From a virus: a DNA stretch of 20,130 nucleotides. Under the pieces are notes generated by a model. That model was not told where the DNA came from, ran no database searches, and saw only the letters and a list, made by a program, of their open reading frames with translations. Made by a program: the position numbers and the translations under genes. The stretch spans positions 1 through 20,130 of the IMG/VR virus record IMGVR_UViG_3300020411_000112. One strand, 5' to 3'. Positions 954 to 15,894 of the stretch are shown one piece after another. How positions within the stretch are numbered: the first letter of the stretch is position 1; every line of letters begins with the position of its first letter.

Positions 954-1577
954 TTATATACAATTTATCCATCCTGTAATTACATACTTCACATTACTCA
1001 ATGGTGGATTACCTCTATGAGTATGTGTGAAACCTGCTGGCCATACTACAAATGTATTTCTAACAGGTTTAATTCTTTTTGATTGATATAGAAATTCAGT
1101 TTCACCACCCTCATCTACATCATTCAGATATACCATAAATGCGAGTAATGTCATTCTATCTTTAATCATAGCAGAATGTTCACAATGCCAATTATGATAA
1201 CCTTCTGTCATTCGTGTCTTCTGCATCTTCATCTGACCGACATACAGTTCATTATATAGACCAGTTTCTATGAGTGGATATTCTTCTAACCATGAATCTA
1301 ATATTTCATTATTGATTATATCATTTATCTCTTGCATTGGTCCATGCACCATTGGGTCTAATGATGTATAGAATATAGAATTGTCGGCACGAAGATGTTT
1401 ATGTGAACCACTATGACCAATTCTTCTCTTTGACACTAGACCTCTATTCTCTAAATCATCAAATTCACGGATACAATCATCTACTATTCTATCTTCAAAA
1501 CAGTTTGGTATGGTCAATATATGGTCACCATGGTCATGCCACTTATATTCAAATCTTTTATCTTGTTCGTTAGTCAT
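954..1577 (-). CDS. 2OG-Fe(II) oxygenase, prolyl 4-hydroxylase-like
   Basis: Predicted 207-aa 2-oxoglutarate and Fe(II)-dependent oxygenase. The C-terminal half has the double-stranded beta-helix pattern: WHCEH (His131, Glu133), then GGETEF, then THTHRGNP (probable metal His187) and VKYVITGW with Lys197 in the place where prolyl 4-hydroxylases bind 2-oxoglutarate. The metal motif is HxE rather than the usual HxD, which some members tolerate; the substrate is unknown. I chose the ATG at 1577 because it overlaps the stop of the 35-aa gene upstream (ATGACTAA), a typical coupled arrangement. An in-frame TTG at 1604 would add nine residues but has no better ribosome site. It is the last of four oxygenase-like genes in a row. 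Confidence 0.82.
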   Translation of the reverse strand: MTNEQDKRFEYKWHDHGDHILTIPNCFEDRIVDDCIREFDDLENRGLVSKRRIGHSGSHKHLRADNSIFYTSLDPMVHGPMQEINDIINNEILDSWLEEYPLIETGLYNELYVGQMKMQKTRMTEGYHNWHCEHSAMIKDRMTLLAFMVYLNDVDEGGETEFLYQSKRIKPVRNTFVVWPAGFTHTHRGNPPLSNVKYVITGWINCI

Positions 1578-1677
1578 TTCTTCTAATACCAAAATCTCTT
1601 TCAATGTCTTCTACACTTTCGGTGCATAAGAGATACAAACCCCAAACAATCATTCCAACAAAAAATACTATTTCCAT
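1570..1677 (-). CDS. Small single-pass membrane peptide, 35 aa
   Basis: A short gene between two oxygenase genes. It encodes a 35-aa peptide with one hydrophobic segment (about residues 3-17, IVFFVGMIVWGLYLL) followed by a charged tail ending GIRRND. The ATG at 1677 lies one base after the upstream stop (TAATATG), with GGGAG 11 bases before it inside the upstream gene. Its stop overlaps the next ATG. Both junctions look like translational coupling, which argues that the peptide is made. The likely place is the inner membrane with the N-terminus in or near the bilayer. I recognise no family. It could merely be a linker frame that keeps ribosomes moving between the oxygenase genes. Confidence 0.62.
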   Translation of the reverse strand: MEIVFFVGMIVWGLYLLCTESVEDIERDFGIRRND

Positions 1678-1678
1678 A

Positions 1679-2374
1679 TTACTCATTTCTCCCAAACCAT
1701 ATTAACAGAACATATCGTTCACCTTGATATATGGGTTCTACACCATGCCATGTTCGTGTTGAGTTATTGAAAAATGTCATTGTGCCTGTTCTCTTTGGCA
1801 CTTGACACCCTTGAACATTCAATTGACCACCATGAAAGTCATCATTCAATTGCATAATACATGTTCCGAAATCAGTTGATTCTGCCTCATCTCTATGAAA
1901 AGGGAAAAAGGAATCTTGTTTGTAATGAACAATCTGCATATATGTGATTCTTTCAAAATCTGGATGATTTTGTGGTATTTGACTTCCCACTATGTTTAGT
2001 ATTTTCTTATACTCTGGTGAATTGTGGGCGATAGTCATATGGTCTTTATTATAACCTGCCTTATACTTATATGATAGATTGAACTTCTGCACCGTTTCAG
2101 ATGGTGTTATGTCGTGTTCATTCTCTATAGTGACATCATCAAATGGTGCGTTCTGATGTATTTCAATGATGTCTTGACAACCCTCATCGGTTATTATTCT
2201 AGGTAATATTATGATAATGTCGTTTTCTAATTCAACAGTTTCATCATCTGCCCTAGGCCAATTTGGTTCTGATAAATGGTCATCATTAGGGTCTAGATTA
2301 GGTTCTTCGTGTTTGTCTATTACTACATCATCAAATGCGATTGGATTACCTATCTTGAATTTTGTTTCTAACAT
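1679..2374 (-). CDS. 2OG-Fe(II) oxygenase, canonical HxD...H...R
   Basis: Predicted 231-aa 2-oxoglutarate/Fe(II)-dependent dioxygenase. The catalytic set is complete: FHRDE (His160, Asp162), then WHGVEP (His210) and GERYVLLIW, where Arg220 should bind the 2-oxoglutarate carboxylate. The N-terminal 60 residues are acidic and low in recognisable structure. The start was set at the ATG at 2374, residue 17 of the longest frame, because AAGGA sits 8 bases before it and the upstream stop (TAA at 2379..2377) is immediately ahead. Of the six oxygenase-like proteins here this has one of the clearest active sites. The substrate cannot be told from sequence; protein, nucleic acid or small-molecule hydroxylation are all open. 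Confidence 0.87.
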   Translation of the reverse strand: MLETKFKIGNPIAFDDVVIDKHEEPNLDPNDDHLSEPNWPRADDETVELENDIIIILPRIITDEGCQDIIEIHQNAPFDDVTIENEHDITPSETVQKFNLSYKYKAGYNKDHMTIAHNSPEYKKILNIVGSQIPQNHPDFERITYMQIVHYKQDSFFPFHRDEAESTDFGTCIMQLNDDFHGGQLNVQGCQVPKRTGTMTFFNNSTRTWHGVEPIYQGERYVLLIWFGRNE

Positions 2375-2376
2375 AA

Positions 2377-3063
2377 TTAATTTCCTTCTGGATGGAAGAA
2401 TGTCACCTGTGTGAATCTCCAATTGTCTTTGTATTTATTGTAATCATCAATATATGCTCCATGCATACGATTACCTGGAAATATCACACAACGATTAAAT
2501 TTGTGTGGTATTATTCTTTCTATAGTAAATCTGTCTTCAACAGGATAGAGTAAACTCATATTCTCATCGTTAGTAATCCATTCACCATCATATACGGCAG
2601 TTCCACCACTTTCTTCTATATCGAGATATACTAACATGTTAAGTGTTGAACATTCGTCTGGCGTATCTAGTGAACTATCTATATGTGGATAGTGTTGCAT
2701 CTTCTTATCAAACTCTGTAATAGTTTGAAAACAGTTGAACTCATATAGGCGTGACCAATCATATTCACCTTTCCACCAATATCGTCTGCATACATCTAAC
2801 AGTCTTTGATGTTCATTCTCATATAATCTTGTTGGATGACCAACCTTATCAACTATTCTACAATCATAGTAATCAACACCATTGCGTGTATCAGATTCAG
2901 GATTATATTTCCACATTGGATATTGTCTGTTAGTGATATGTTCATATAACATATCTGCATTTTCATAGAAGTCATCTATAGTCAATGCAAATCCATCAAA
3001 CTCTGCATTGTCAAATGATGACCTCATTTTATATAATTCATCTAATACAACTACTCTATTCAT
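2377..3063 (-). CDS. 2OG-Fe(II) oxygenase-like protein, possibly DUF6445-type
   Basis: A 228-aa protein with a probable double-stranded beta-helix core. Metal and cosubstrate residues can be placed: HYPHIDSS (His127, Asp129), a core strand STLNMLVYLD followed by GGTAVYDG, then GNRMHGAY (His201) and WRFTQVTFF with Arg216. The pattern recalls the DUF6445 group of phage and bacterial oxygenase-like proteins, though I could not test this. The ATG at 3063 overlaps the upstream stop by 8 bases, and GGAG lies 9 bases before it within the upstream gene, so translation is probably coupled. The substrate is unknown. Confidence 0.78.
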   Translation of the reverse strand: MNRVVVLDELYKMRSSFDNAEFDGFALTIDDFYENADMLYEHITNRQYPMWKYNPESDTRNGVDYYDCRIVDKVGHPTRLYENEHQRLLDVCRRYWWKGEYDWSRLYEFNCFQTITEFDKKMQHYPHIDSSLDTPDECSTLNMLVYLDIEESGGTAVYDGEWITNDENMSLLYPVEDRFTIERIIPHKFNRCVIFPGNRMHGAYIDDYNKYKDNWRFTQVTFFHPEGN

Positions 3064-3799
3064 GTTCTAATACTCCATAATCAAATGGCGAACCGTGATG
3101 ATATGAACCTAAATCTTCTGAATGTTGTAAATTGAATGAAATTGATATTCTTTCGTAGTTTTCTCGTAAGTCACCCTTTGGTACAGTATGTAATAGGTAC
3201 GATGGCCACAATAAGAAGTCACCATTTTTAGGGAAGAATTCCAAATCTGTCATTCCACCTGGCGTGCCTTGACCTTCCATTTGTTCATTGTATTTCATTC
3301 TATCATCACTGGCGCCATGTCCAAATATAGAACTCATATTTGGGTTAAAAAACTTAATTGGTTCGGCGACAGAGGTAGACACATAGTATGTGCCTGATAA
3401 TCTAGATTTAACATGATTGTGTGTTTCATGTTGATGTTTCTCATTATAGACATTAACCCATGCAAACAGGTGTATGTTATGTCTGTTCAATCCTTTGGTT
3501 GGGAATAACCACATATCTCTAAGAAATGCGACATATGAATCCTTCAATTGATTAGCGAATGACTCAAACCAAGGTTGATTGTGTGTTTCTTCTCTTAAAT
3601 CATCAAAGAAATATGTTGTGTATTCCATTGTTGCATTACCTTTATCACATTTCGCAACAACATCTCTACAGTGTTGTGCAATTTCGTTGTGTGGTAGGTT
3701 TAGTTTACCTTGGAATATAGGTGTTGGGAACATCTGATGATATTCCCCTTTGCATGGTGCATATGTATTCTTTTGATTATTAACCTGAATCGGTTTCAT
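3056..3799 (-). CDS. Putative 2OG-Fe(II) oxygenase, 2OG-FeII_Oxy_5-like
   Basis: A 247-aa protein that matches the layout of the PF13759/TIGR02466 family of putative 2-oxoglutarate/Fe(II) oxygenases. Diagnostic stretches are HETHNHVKSRLSGTYYVS (His127, His129), FFPKNGDFLLWPS, LLHTVP (His204) and YERISISFNL (Arg217). The first metal motif is HxH instead of HxD, as I recall for this family. The N-terminal MFPTPIFQGKL motif is also typical, where the family often begins with a phrase about a pair of prolines before a beta strand. It overlaps the lipoprotein gene upstream by 20 bases. The ribosome site before the ATG is weak (GACGAAGA). The substrate is unknown. The HNH letters do not indicate a nuclease. 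Confidence 0.82.
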   Translation of the reverse strand: MKPIQVNNQKNTYAPCKGEYHQMFPTPIFQGKLNLPHNEIAQHCRDVVAKCDKGNATMEYTTYFFDDLREETHNQPWFESFANQLKDSYVAFLRDMWLFPTKGLNRHNIHLFAWVNVYNEKHQHETHNHVKSRLSGTYYVSTSVAEPIKFFNPNMSSIFGHGASDDRMKYNEQMEGQGTPGGMTDLEFFPKNGDFLLWPSYLLHTVPKGDLRENYERISISFNLQHSEDLGSYHHGSPFDYGVLEHE

Positions 3800-4325
3800 T
3801 CTTCGTCACTTTCGCACCCACGCCTTCTTCTCCATTAGGCATGGTTACATTTCTATAATATACTATTACTTCGCCCATTTGTTTGATGTATCGTTTGAGT
3901 TCTTGCATATCTTCTGCCATGACTTTATAGTCACCGATAGTAGTTGCAACAAATACGACTTCACCATTATTCATATCTTTCATGTCATCTAGAAATCTAT
4001 CTAGATATGTGTATCCTTCTGGCCATTCAGGATTCTCTCTGTCTTCTAAATTACATGTCTTTGGTCTTTTAAGTTGTTCTACACCATTCTCATCAAACTT
4101 CTTTGGTTCAAATGAGATAGATTTCTTACATGGATTGGCGATTCTCGCCTCTGATACTACATACCATTTTGGTGCAGTGAGTTCCACTGGTCGTGGTAAG
4201 TTAGGTTGCATTATATCAATTTGAATAGGTTTAGAAACAACCTCTATTTTCTTCTCACCTAATAATGAACAACCACTAATCGTTGTTATCAGGATTGCTG
4301 AGATTAAAAAGTTTCTCAGTGTCAT
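3780..4325 (-). CDS. Outer-membrane lipoprotein, probable o-spanin (Rz1-like)
   Basis: A 181-aa predicted lipoprotein. The N-terminus MTLRNFLISAILITTISGC is a signal peptide ending in a lipobox (ISG-Cys19), so the mature protein should be lipidated and sorted to the outer membrane. The C-terminal part, with an MQELKRYIKQMGEVIVYYRN stretch, resembles lipoproteins I recall next to coiled-coil membrane proteins in T4-like phages. The start is the ATG at 4325: GGAGG lies 9 bases before it, whereas the TTG at 4331 is too close to that site. The gene begins inside the preceding coiled-coil membrane protein gene (50-base overlap), the classic Rz/Rz1 arrangement. It is longer than typical Rz1, so the spanin role is probable, not proven. 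Confidence 0.72.
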   Translation of the reverse strand: MTLRNFLISAILITTISGCSLLGEKKIEVVSKPIQIDIMQPNLPRPVELTAPKWYVVSEARIANPCKKSISFEPKKFDENGVEQLKRPKTCNLEDRENPEWPEGYTYLDRFLDDMKDMNNGEVVFVATTIGDYKVMAEDMQELKRYIKQMGEVIVYYRNVTMPNGEEGVGAKVTKNETDSG

Positions 4326-4659
4326 CTTCAATTCCCTCCATTACTTCTTCGCTACCATTATTGAACCTGTTTTCAACTAAACCAGGTTTCTTGGTTGCAA
4401 GTAAATCTACATTGTGCCTTGAAAATATCGCAAGGTATTCTGCCTTCTCTTTTTCGATTAATGCCATCTCACGACTCATGTTCATCAAGGATTCACCTTG
4501 TTTCTCATATTGTTCTTTCATGATGGCCATAGTTTGTTTCTGTTCCTCTACGGCAGCTTCGAGTTTGATGTTGTTTTCGGTTAATGTCTGATTCTGATTA
4601 TACAGAAAGAAACATAGTAAACCGGCAGCAACTAATAAACCCATTGTTAATTGATTCAT
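4276..4659 (-). CDS. Inner-membrane coiled-coil protein, probable i-spanin (Rz-like)
   Basis: A 127-aa protein with one N-terminal membrane helix (about residues 4-20, LTMGLLVAAGLLCFFLY) and a long charged helical region after it (about 24-85, likely coiled coil), followed by KKPGLVENRFN and an acidic tail. This N-in, C-out layout is that of inner-membrane spanins, which span the periplasm and pair with an outer-membrane lipoprotein to fuse the two membranes at the end of lysis. The KPGL(I/V)E-R-N stretch recalls similar proteins in other T4-like phages. GGAG stands 5 bases before the ATG at 4659. The downstream lipoprotein gene starts within this gene in another frame. No holin or endolysin is recognisable in the window. 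Confidence 0.75.
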   Translation of the reverse strand: MNQLTMGLLVAAGLLCFFLYNQNQTLTENNIKLEAAVEEQKQTMAIMKEQYEKQGESLMNMSREMALIEKEKAEYLAIFSRHNVDLLATKKPGLVENRFNNGSEEVMEGIEDDTEKLFNLSNPDNND

Positions 4660-9509: not shown

Positions 9510-11787
9510 CGCAATCTTCCTCACTATCGGAATCAAAAGGGTCAGTTGGTAATGACTCTTCCATAACATCTTCTACTTTACCATCCATTGTGTTCTGGTA
9601 ATATGATGTCTTCCATCCATACTTATAGGTGTTCAACAAATCTCTTGCCATAATAGAGACCGGAACTTCATTATTATCATAATTCTCGGGATTGTATGAC
9701 CAGTTACCACTAATCCCTTGGTCGAAGAACTTCTGCATAACTGCAACAATATTGATATAACCTGTATTATCTGGCATATCCCATAATAGAGTATATGCAG
9801 ATTTAAGGTGTGAGTATTGAGGCACTATTTGTTTCAGTGTTCCTTTCTTACTCTTCTTAACTGATAGATAATCTCTTGGTGGTTCAATACCATTTGTTGC
9901 ATTAGATGTCACACTTGATGACTCACTAGGCATTTGTGCAGTGAGTGTAGAGTGTCTTAACCCATGTGTTAATATCTCTGCTCTTAAATTCTCCCAATCC
10001 ATCTTATATTTTGGTTTTACTATATCATCTACATCTTTCTTGTAAGTGTCTATCGGTAATATGCCTTGTGCATACTTTGTTCTATCAAAATAGTCACATT
10101 TACCTTTCTCCTTAGCAATTTCATTACTTGATTTGAGTAGATAGTATTGAAACTTTTCGGTGAGTTCATGGACGAGATTCCATGCGTTCTGGTCACCATA
10201 TTTGACTCTGTTTTTCGCAAGATAGTGTGCAAGTCCAATATATCCAATACCAAGACTTCTTCTTGCGAGAGTGGACATTTCGGCAGCTGCAACTGGATAT
10301 TCTTGATAGTCTATCAACTCTTCAAGACCTCTAACTGCAAGGTCACAAATCTCTTCTAATTCTTCTTCTTTAACAACACCAACATTGATTGCACTTAATA
10401 TACATAAGGCAATCTCCCCACCATGGTCATCAATATGTTGGATAGGTTCTGTTGGTAATGTTATCTCTTGACAAAGATTACTCATATTAATCTTGTCTGT
10501 AAATGAACTATGACTGTTGCAATGGTCAATGTTCATTATATAGATACGGCCAGTCTCCGCTCTTTCTTTGAGTAAATCTGTTATCAGTTCTCTTGCACTA
10601 ACTTTCTTTTTAGGTATTGAGTATGCATTTTCAAACTTCTCATACATCTCATCAAACTCTGGCGTACCAAATGCCTCATATAAACCTGGCACATCATGTG
10701 GAGAGAATAAAGTTATTTCACCATCAGATAAAAATCTCTTATAAAATAACTCTGATAACTGTATAGAATAATCTAACTTTCTTACTCTATTATCTTCTGT
10801 TCCTTTATTGTTCTTTAAGACAATAATGTCTTCTATTTCTTGGTGCCAAATAGGAAAATGAACTGTTGCACTGCCACCTCTTACACCATTTTGGGTGCAA
10901 CACCTTACAGTTGACTCAAATTTCTTCAAGAAGGGGATAACTCCTGTGTGTTGCACTTCCCCACCTCTTATTTTTGAACCTAAACCTCTAACTCTTCCTG
11001 CATTGATACCAATGCCTGCTCTTTGGGCGACATATCTACCAATCGCCATATCACTAGAAAATAATGAATCTAATGTATCATCACTATCTACTAAAACACA
11101 ACTCGCAAACTGTTTTAATGGTGTTCTCACACCTGCCATAATAGGCGTAGGTATGTTTATCTTGAATGTCGATGATGCGTTGTAGTATTTTTGAATATAT
11201 GATAATCTTTTCTCTTTATCATAATTCTGAAACAGTGTCATTGCAATTAACATATACATGAATTGCGGTGTTTCAAACATTGTTCCGGTTGACCTATCTT
11301 GTATCAGATACTTATCTACTACTTGTTGTAGGCCTGCATATGTAAATTCGAAATCTCTACTATGCCTTAGATATGAGTTAAGTTTCTTTAACTCTTTGTC
11401 TGAGTATTTATCTCTTAAATCTGTTGAATAAAGACCTTTCTCTATATTTCTTTCTATTAAGTCTTTGAGTGGTGGATATATCTCACTATCTTTCCACTTT
11501 GTATTGAATACTTGTTTCTGTATCGCAAACAATAATAATCTAGATGCGACATACTGATAATTTGGTGATTCTAGAGATATTAAGTCACTGGCTGACTTGA
11601 TTAGAATTTTCTGTATCTCTTGTGTTGTTATGCCATCATAAAATTGAAGACCACTGTTCATTTCTACTAATGATTCAGAAACACCTGTTATACCACGACA
11701 GGCCTTTTCGACCATTCTATGAATCTTATCTAAATTTATCTCTACTTTTGTACCATCTGTTTTAATGACCTTTATTTCTGAATTCAT
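9493..11787 (-). CDS. nrdA: Ribonucleoside-diphosphate reductase, large (alpha) subunit, class Ia
   Basis: The 764-aa catalytic subunit, full length compared with 761 aa in E. coli. An N-terminal ATP-cone (about residues 5-95) implies dATP/ATP activity control. Active-site residues are all present: Cys230 and Cys462 as the redox pair, and NLCQE with Asn437, Cys439 and Glu441, the thiyl-radical site at E. coli numbering. Tyr729-Tyr730 (TSYYQN) continue the radical path to NrdB. The C-terminus DSEEDCDACAI carries Cys759 and Cys762, a CxxC shuttle for glutaredoxin. The ATG overlaps the primase stop (ATGA); GGAG lies 11 bases upstream. No intron, intein or split is seen. Confidence 0.97.
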   Translation of the reverse strand: MNSEIKVIKTDGTKVEINLDKIHRMVEKACRGITGVSESLVEMNSGLQFYDGITTQEIQKILIKSASDLISLESPNYQYVASRLLLFAIQKQVFNTKWKDSEIYPPLKDLIERNIEKGLYSTDLRDKYSDKELKKLNSYLRHSRDFEFTYAGLQQVVDKYLIQDRSTGTMFETPQFMYMLIAMTLFQNYDKEKRLSYIQKYYNASSTFKINIPTPIMAGVRTPLKQFASCVLVDSDDTLDSLFSSDMAIGRYVAQRAGIGINAGRVRGLGSKIRGGEVQHTGVIPFLKKFESTVRCCTQNGVRGGSATVHFPIWHQEIEDIIVLKNNKGTEDNRVRKLDYSIQLSELFYKRFLSDGEITLFSPHDVPGLYEAFGTPEFDEMYEKFENAYSIPKKKVSARELITDLLKERAETGRIYIMNIDHCNSHSSFTDKINMSNLCQEITLPTEPIQHIDDHGGEIALCILSAINVGVVKEEELEEICDLAVRGLEELIDYQEYPVAAAEMSTLARRSLGIGYIGLAHYLAKNRVKYGDQNAWNLVHELTEKFQYYLLKSSNEIAKEKGKCDYFDRTKYAQGILPIDTYKKDVDDIVKPKYKMDWENLRAEILTHGLRHSTLTAQMPSESSSVTSNATNGIEPPRDYLSVKKSKKGTLKQIVPQYSHLKSAYTLLWDMPDNTGYINIVAVMQKFFDQGISGNWSYNPENYDNNEVPVSIMARDLLNTYKYGWKTSYYQNTMDGKVEDVMEESLPTDPFDSDSEEDCDACAI

Positions 11788-14064: not shown

Positions 14065-15894
14065 TTACTTTATATCGTATCTTTTAAGAATTCTAGTCCA
14101 AAGTGCCTTTGAATCTCTTTCATTCTTTTTCTGATACTTGTTTCTTCTAACTAAAGGTGTATCAGTTGATACTGCAACACCTGTAGAATTCACTGGCGCA
14201 TCTTCTTTTATGTCGTCTTTTATATATTTTATTAATTCGTCTGCGAGTTTTATGCCTGCCTTATAGTCACTTGGATAATGTAGTCCTGCTTGAACCCTAC
14301 CCCATGCACATATATCAGCGGCATCTCTTAAATTTTCTTTGTGTTCTGGATGTTTCTTTGCATAATAATTTGCAACAACATATGCTTGAACTGAATGACC
14401 AGATGGATATGCTGGTGTGTTTGCAGTTCCTGTTTTGAATTTGTTTAACTTCATCTTATATTTTTCTGCAAGTTGATATGGTCTAGGTCTGTTAAACATA
14501 TTCTTATAATGTCTTGATATTGGTGTGCATTGGTCTTTGATATATTCCATCTCTTCTTCATCATATTCTATACCTGACTCATCCATGTATTCTTTTATAT
14601 AATACATCGCATCTTCATCACAATTGATGTATTGTCTTTTAACTTCATCTGATGCATTATCTGTTTCATCTATAACTTGTGTTAGTTCTTTCTTAGTCTG
14701 ACCTGAACTGTTAGTTGGTGGTGGGTCTAACTTGATAGAGTCCCAACCCTCATCAAATATCTTTATCTTTTTATACTTTGCCTTCTTTAATTCATCTTTA
14801 GGTGCAAAATCTAATGTATCTAAATTTACAATGTTCTCTATGAAAAGGTTTGATTCACTCTTTAGACCTAGTTTCTTATCTACTGCCTTGGCACCCTTTT
14901 CTACTGCACCACCCATTGTTTCAGCCCAATCAAGCATTTTCTGTTTGACTTTCTTACCTTGTTCAGTCTGACCTGCACTCTGTAATCCTGAATATGTCAA
15001 TGCAAGTGCTAAACCTGTTGCACCACCCATCCAGATTGGTAACCCACCAGTGGCGAGACCTGCACTCAATAGACCTATGCCTTTTATGCCATCAGGTGTG
15101 GCGATTAGTTCTCTAAAACCTGCCTCTCCCATAAACGCTTGAGGAATTATCGTAAGGTCAAAATCTGATTCTATATCACCCGAGAATGACATTCTTAACC
15201 ATTGGCCGATTGCAAGTCCTGATACTGCAACAGCACTCATTGTCGCAAGTGCCTTATTCTTTTTCATAAACTCATCAACTTTGATGATACCCTTTTCTAA
15301 TTGTTGGAATGCAGGTGTGTCATGAATGGCAGCGGCACCAACTTTAAGTGATTTGCCTACTGTTCTTAATGTTCCCATTATAACTCTTGATGATGCAGAT
15401 ATAGAACCACCTATTGCCTTGACTGTATTATAGACTGATGGTTGTTTAAATGCAGTTGCGATAGTTTCAACATCTACACCTATTGCATCTCTTACACTTT
15501 GAACATGTTGTTTTAAATCTGCAACTGTATCTGGTAATTCATCACCAATGTTATCGTCTTTTACATCTGATTCAGGTTCTGATGTGTCTTTCTTCTTATC
15601 AGCGTATTTCTTATTAAAAGCTCTGTCACTATCTGTGTCTAAGGGGGAATCTTTTGAAGTAGGTTCAGAATCACCTTTCTTCATTTTTGATAGACTTTTC
15701 TTTAACTCTTTTGTTTTTTCTGAATCTGGATGTGCCTTAATATATGCCTGTTGTTTTTCAGGCGACATATCAAAGAACCATTTGTCTTTCTGTTGGGCGT
15801 CTTCGAGTAATATCTCTTCACATACTAAATCAATGGTATCACACCATTTTCTATAGTCTTCATCTATGTGATATAATACTTCTTCAATAAACAT
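14065..15894 (-). CDS. Large fusion protein with C-terminal PAP2-type phosphatase domain
   Basis: A 609-aa protein. The C-terminal domain (about 420-560) has the three PAP2 phosphatase motifs: KNMFNRPRP (Lys464, Arg471, Pro472), YPSGHS (residues 497-500 PSGH) and GRVQAGLHYPSD (Arg533, His539, Asp543). These form the vanadate-type active site that removes phosphate from lipids, nucleotides or other small esters. The N-terminal 400 residues are unlike known PAP2 enzymes: SPEKQQAYIKAHPDS at 44-58, a phrase I know from phage virion proteins, a charged linker, and glycine/alanine-rich hydrophobic segments at about 215-232 and 272-306. A basic tail follows the phosphatase. The gene overlaps the upstream one by 11 bases. 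It may be virion-borne or membrane-bound. Confidence 0.84.
   Translation of the reverse strand: MFIEEVLYHIDEDYRKWCDTIDLVCEEILLEDAQQKDKWFFDMSPEKQQAYIKAHPDSEKTKELKKSLSKMKKGDSEPTSKDSPLDTDSDRAFNKKYADKKKDTSEPESDVKDDNIGDELPDTVADLKQHVQSVRDAIGVDVETIATAFKQPSVYNTVKAIGGSISASSRVIMGTLRTVGKSLKVGAAAIHDTPAFQQLEKGIIKVDEFMKKNKALATMSAVAVSGLAIGQWLRMSFSGDIESDFDLTIIPQAFMGEAGFRELIATPDGIKGIGLLSAGLATGGLPIWMGGATGLALALTYSGLQSAGQTEQGKKVKQKMLDWAETMGGAVEKGAKAVDKKLGLKSESNLFIENIVNLDTLDFAPKDELKKAKYKKIKIFDEGWDSIKLDPPPTNSSGQTKKELTQVIDETDNASDEVKRQYINCDEDAMYYIKEYMDESGIEYDEEEMEYIKDQCTPISRHYKNMFNRPRPYQLAEKYKMKLNKFKTGTANTPAYPSGHSVQAYVVANYYAKKHPEHKENLRDAADICAWGRVQAGLHYPSDYKAGIKLADELIKYIKDDIKEDAPVNSTGVAVSTDTPLVRRNKYQKKNERDSKALWTRILKRYDIK

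Follow-up and report, generated by a model that had tools for sequence, protein, structure and literature searches.

A conserved row of four divergent oxygenase-like genes in a marine T4-like phage, with virion proteins as possible targets

The window analysed here is the complete 20,130-bp virus record IMGVR_UViG_3300020411_000112, the source of which is a T4-like marine (pelagic) phage. Its minus strand carries an operon-like gene run in which four oxygenase-like genes are read in the order P4, P3, P2, P1. P4 (3056..3799, 247 amino acids, HxH..H..R) is an oxygenase of PF13759 (2OG-FeII_Oxy_5), TIGR02466 and phrog_81, and P3 (2377..3063, 228 amino acids, HxD..H..R) is an oxygenase-like protein of DUF6445 and phrog_1644, which bears the label 'minor coat protein'. 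P2 (1679..2374, 231 amino acids, HxD..H..R) is a phrog_2297-like oxygenase of PF13640, and P1 (954..1577, 207 amino acids, WHxE..THxHRGNP..K) is a prolyl 4-hydroxylase-like member of PF13640 and phrog_61. The original prediction, made from the letters alone, had proposed four oxygenase-like genes with three different metal motifs between 954 and 3799, and the open reading frames (ORFs), family matches and invariant sites all bear this out.

Models of the Fe(II)/2-oxoglutarate (2OG) oxygenase superfamily recognize P1, P2 and P4. P1 and P2 score 45.3 and 49.1 bits against PF13640 (cut-off 27), while P4 reaches 63.5 bits against PF13759, above the curated cut-off, and passes TIGR02466 as well. 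P3 matches DUF6445 at 36.0 bits (cut-off 24) and PF13640 at a sub-threshold 21.4; all 12 members of its family likewise match DUF6445 and, more weakly, PF13640. In the PHROG database the matches are to 81 (P4), 1644 (P3), 2297 and 61 (P2) and 61 (P1). We therefore count P3 as oxygenase-like on its DUF6445 and weak PF13640 matches and its invariant HxD..H..R.

The metal ligands and the basic 2OG residue (HxD/E/H..H..R/K) are conserved in all four proteins, and the residues are those originally read as HxE with Lys, HxD with Arg (twice) and HxH. The sites comprise H131-x-E133, H187 and K197 in P1 and H160-x-D162, H210 and R220 in P2, both invariant in the aligned relatives; H127-x-D129, H201 and R216 in P3, invariant in 13 sequences; and H127-x-H129, H204 and R217 in P4, invariant in 15 sequences, with the HxH kept down to ~20 percent identity. 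Only P2 and P3 have the canonical HxD. P1 has the H and K of the prolyl 4-hydroxylase site HxD..H..K, but HxE replaces HxD; this is an old trait, which the near cyanophage members share (WHCE, YHCE, VHCE).

Solved relatives could be found for three of the four. In sequence or in fold, P1, P2 and P6 (a further oxygenase of the run, described below) are related to bacterial prolyl 4-hydroxylases (3itq, 5hv0; Pseudomonas putida 4j25/4iw3); prolyl 4-hydroxylases in the PDB were matched by P1 at 2e-9 using a profile and by P2 at 3e-5, although P1 differs from the bacterial enzymes in its HxE and identity to them is low. P4 matches 2rg4 (1e-10) and 3bvc, both PF13759/TIGR02466 proteins deposited as uncharacterised, and aligns with them along most of its length, HxH included. 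A profile search of the PDB with P3 gave chance matches only and no solved relative. Judging from what is known of these families, it is highly probable that most of P1 to P4 are active hydroxylases, each binding Fe(II) and 2OG.

The four genes had been described as joined by overlaps or near-zero gaps. This holds for P4 and P3, which overlap by 8 nucleotides, and for P3 and P2, where ATG 2374 lies 2 nucleotides past the P3 stop and is most likely the P2 start, replacing the TTG at 2422 of the program-made ORF. It does not hold for P2 and P1. The P1 start is most likely ATG 1577 (the program ORF opens earlier, at TTG 1604), and the 101 nucleotides between the P2 stop and this ATG hold a minus-strand ORF of 35 codons (MEIVFFVGMIVWGLYLLCTES..., 1570..1677), with one membrane segment by eye, whose stop overlaps the P1 start. 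Because this ORF separates P2 from P1, the four genes do not form an unbroken row, and several relatives have entire genes at this point. In some of them a member of phrog_274 is inserted here; it shows HxD..H..R and, although labelled 'DNA endonuclease V', probably encodes another oxygenase. In many relatives a small Zn-ribbon-like protein (CSQC..VWC..CSH) adjoins P2 (for example L014, 11382-11564, and L003, 12156-12377), and in contig L002 it is fused to the P2 C-terminus; it was not found in the window.

The differing motifs had been taken as a sign of separate families and not of recent duplication, and our comparisons agree. Profile-profile similarity is weak or absent among P1 to P4, as it is between P1 and P6. 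In a PF13640 tree, P1 falls within a cyanophage clade (supports 99/97 and 96/87), apart from P2, which groups weakly with phrog_2297. Recent duplication of the four genes is ruled out by these weak or absent similarities and by the tree positions. The pattern fits recruitment from a shared marine-phage gene pool, as has been published for cyanophages (PMC9602691).

A scan of viral contigs with P2 as query returned no relative; those of P2 were located via the P3 and P4 loci. The order P4-P3-P2 is identical in all 17 distinct related IMG/VR contigs, and P1 then follows in each of the 15 that reach far enough, so the gene order does recur, as the original prediction had proposed to check. This extends to the most distant contig (L025), where identity is ~24-41 percent for P1, P2 and P4 and 65 percent for P3. 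Ratios of nonsynonymous to synonymous substitution (dN/dS) in close pairs lie between 0.03 and 0.36 for P1 to P4, and all four genes are under purifying selection. Two relatives with near-complete genomes, G001 (140 kb) and G002 (153 kb), have ~12 oxygenase genes apiece. When ~12 oxygenases were placed randomly in the 166-ORF genome of G001 by simulation, a run of at least four arose with p ~0.002; given this value and the conserved order across related contigs, the array is beyond chance.

Two further oxygenases, P5 and P6, sit upstream in the same gene run, between nrdA and nrdB, and had been missed by the original prediction. P5 (7966..8580, minus strand, 204 amino acids) is a phrog_2696/phrog_81-like putative oxygenase with HRH..H..R; it scores 19.5 bits against PF13759, under the cut-off, and is absent from many relatives. 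P6 (8577..9509, minus strand) lies between nrdA and P5; its ORF opens at 9569, with ATG 9509 the likely start. P6 belongs to phrog_2954, which carries the name 'ferrochelatase'. An AlphaFold model of moderate confidence (predicted local distance difference test, pLDDT, 62.5; predicted template modelling score, pTM, 0.67) has the double-stranded beta-helix fold, and its best Foldseek matches in the PDB are a P. putida prolyl 4-hydroxylase (1e-8) and human PHD2. The fold search gave 599 PDB matches at E<=0.001, and those listed are nearly all 2OG oxygenases. P6 has no Pfam ferrochelatase match and no PDB sequence match to anything. The fold matches to 2OG oxygenases, the lack of a Pfam ferrochelatase match and the HxD..H present in P6 all speak against a ferrochelatase identity.

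On the strength of this model the 'ferrochelatase' label looks wrong for P6, and counts of auxiliary metabolic genes in the literature may be affected. The same label is carried by HTVC008M gp068 and Mosig 00059, which have an HKD motif. In seasonal pelagiphages, genes for a 'ferrochelatase' (phrog2954) and a 2OG oxygenase (phrog61) are reported to co-occur (PMC11561400), and this may be the co-occurrence of two branches of one superfamily. PHROG 274, 2297 and 1644 bear the labels 'DNA endonuclease (V)' or 'minor coat protein' on proteins with HxD..H..R sites. Members of phrog_2297 exceed the PF13640 cut-off, and the names of all three families have probably been wrongly transferred.

The minus strand of the window also carries primase, nrdA, nrdB, glutaredoxin-like and spanin genes. 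An Rz/Rz1-like spanin pair (3780..4659, minus strand) lies directly upstream of the array and overlaps P4 by 20 nucleotides. On the other side, P1 is followed by P0 (3..884, minus strand), a conserved protein that runs off the window end, has no Pfam, PHROG or NCBIfam match, and comes after P1 in those related contigs that extend to it. Promoter-like sites were no more frequent than in shuffles, and transcription starts could not be placed. Elsewhere, 14065-15894 encodes a protein of 609 amino acids that carries a PAP2 phosphatase domain at its C-terminus (31.4 bits, cut-off 27.2). Among named phages, the window NrdB is closest to those of the SAR11 phages HTVC008M (68.7 percent) and Mosig (67.2 percent), with cyanophages next; because of this proximity, the host is probably SAR11.

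We know of no substrate for the oxygenases of marine T4-like phages. The reading we favour, tentatively and at slightly less than an even chance, is that the array is a tandem of four intact Fe(II)/2OG-dependent hydroxylases, one version of the marine T4-like arrays, that would act on virion proteins. A little more doubtful is its specific form, in which the substrates would be virion proteins made by the phage, chiefly tail-fibre or receptor-binding proteins. P1 to P4 would hydroxylate their side chains (such as those of Pro, Asn, Asp, Lys or Arg), working in parallel on different residues with no required sequence of action, and in relatives a neighbouring GT8 could possibly glycosylate the hydroxylated proteins. 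A pathway of sequential hydroxylations had been suggested at the outset; other phages carry the genes in a different order or with some of them exchanged, which fits a parallel pool of hydroxylases at least as well.

Tail and receptor-binding proteins seem the most plausible substrates because of what lies near oxygenases in related phages. G001, G002 and a third relative, G003, encode proline-octad repeat proteins (SPxTYxHR, EPNIRNxQ, PYPYIANAQ) in the tail region (G001: L041, 10434-15625, and L042, 3010-5700; G002: L034, 2773-4843), and in G001 and G002 two additional oxygenases and a GT8-like gene are no more than a few kb away. In cyanophage S-SCSM1, the short tail fibre gp127 (L028, 18880-20145), just downstream of an array, has a long, strongly basic insert rich in RQP/RAP. 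By eye, one of the proline-octad proteins has a Hint-like C-terminus. Very doubtful is a maturation resembling that of hydroxyproline glycoproteins, in which arrayed prolyl/aspartyl-type hydroxylases and GT8 would act on the octad proteins and the fibre would become hydroxylated, possibly glycosylated and extensin-like. A tblastn search of one proline-repeat protein against cultured phages gave one marginal low-complexity match only, and a literature search on hydroxyproline in phage virions and on DUF6445 returned nothing on point.

Several observations weigh against four intact hydroxylases directed at virion proteins. The HxH of P4 and the HxE of P1 depart from the canonical triad, and the AlphaFold model of P3 (from a 12-row alignment) was unusable at a pLDDT of 32.9, so its beta-helix fold is not confirmed. 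P2 is frameshifted in relative L025 (10686-11530), through decay or sequencing error. The array in the window adjoins spanins and nrdAB, not tail genes, and phages S-CAM9, S-SCSM2R and Sf-CH8 have the P3 family with no four-gene row at its locus. HTVC008M, Mosig, S-RIM50 and ACG-2014b all carry arrays, but no proline-octad protein was found in any of them; the octad repeats are thus not a general substrate.

Other explanations differ in what the enzymes would act on, or in whether they act together at all. Clustering without joint function, in which oxygenase genes are often-exchanged cargo piling up in permissive gaps, would account for the different composition and order of arrays between lineages, for the extra oxygenase-like genes inserted in some relatives and for the occurrence of the P3 family elsewhere without an array. 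We nevertheless find it rather doubtful, as order and sites are kept within the lineage across large divergence, P1 to P4 are all under purifying selection, and S-RIM50 has the same four families together. Hydroxylation of host translation or metabolism proteins (e.g. EF-Tu or ribosomal proteins), steering the host during infection, is suggested by the fact that the best structural matches of P6 include the P. putida prolyl 4-hydroxylase solved with EF-Tu, and by the bacterial prolyl 4-hydroxylases that are the nearest solved relatives of P1 and P2. This also seems unlikely: a substrate cannot be read from a shared fold, a conserved target would scarcely call for ~12 divergent enzymes in each genome, and most of the arrays found adjoin virion genes.

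Modification of nucleic acid (base hydroxylation or demethylation in the manner of AlkB or TET/JBP) or of tRNA is in our view improbable. No homologue of PF00303 (thymidylate synthase/base hydroxymethylase) and no Tet_JBP match above the cut-off occurs in G001 to G003, and the best matches are of prolyl 4-hydroxylase type; this has to be set against the nearby primase and nrdA/nrdB genes, a weak AlkB-type match of P2 (PF13532, 15.4 bits), a sub-threshold Tet_JBP match of P2 from G002 (21.4 bits, cut-off 34.9) and the Zn-ribbon-like neighbour or fusion partner of P2 in many relatives. It appears similarly improbable that small molecules or surface sugars are the targets, or that the enzymes draw down the 2OG pool of the host. 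For cyanophage oxygenases an effect on host nitrogen signalling has been proposed (Sullivan et al. 2010, PMC3037559), and the site after nrdB in HTVC008M holds glycosyltransferase and other glycan-type genes. However, the NtcA/2OG argument was made for cyanobacteria, whereas the nearest cultured relatives of this phage infect SAR11, and consuming one metabolite needs no set of many divergent enzymes.

Hydroxylation of virion proteins remains our preferred, if tentative, reading. With divergent families kept adjacent, intact sites and candidate repeat substrates in relatives, an old annotation puzzle becomes testable in isolates such as HTVC008M and S-RIM50. The abundance of 2OG oxygenase genes in phages has been reported before, with up to 24 such genes per marine T4-like genome, as in S-SCSM1 (24 2OG-Fe(II) genes), and effects on host metabolism were proposed (PMC9602691).

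Rows of four to six oxygenase genes occur in the isolates HTVC008M, Mosig, S-SCSM1, S-RIM50 and ACG-2014b, mostly by neck, baseplate or tail-fibre genes, and the window likewise has at least four neighbouring divergent genes, with the 35-codon ORF between P2 and P1. HTVC008M, a close phage by NrdB, has five tandem genes (gp068-gp072; PHROG 2954, 61, 81, 81, 61) with HxE, HxH and HxD motifs like those of the window, one member being HxE and two HxH. Its array differs from ours in lying between baseplate and neck genes and not after nrdB and spanins, in lacking phrog_1644 and in its order. Mosig has a six-gene array (00055-00060) beside neck and tail-fibre genes, and ACG-2014b an oxygenase array (gp021-026) in a neck/tail-fibre neighbourhood. 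S-SCSM1, with its many oxygenases, resembles the window in a tandem (gp132-gp129) that includes phrog_81 twice and phrog_1644 once, but gp131 has no family match and the tail fibres gp128 and gp127 come after the array. S-RIM50 has all four families side by side (gp221-gp218; phrog_81, 61, 2297, 1644), as in the window; the families are permuted, the neighbours are tail-fibre genes and protein identity is low (26 percent for P3). The array is thus genuine and conserved, yet of a kind already known: it is a vertically kept local version of the oxygenase arrays of marine T4-like phages, and what sets the one in the window apart is its location after spanins and nrdAB, its gene order and its fixed quartet.

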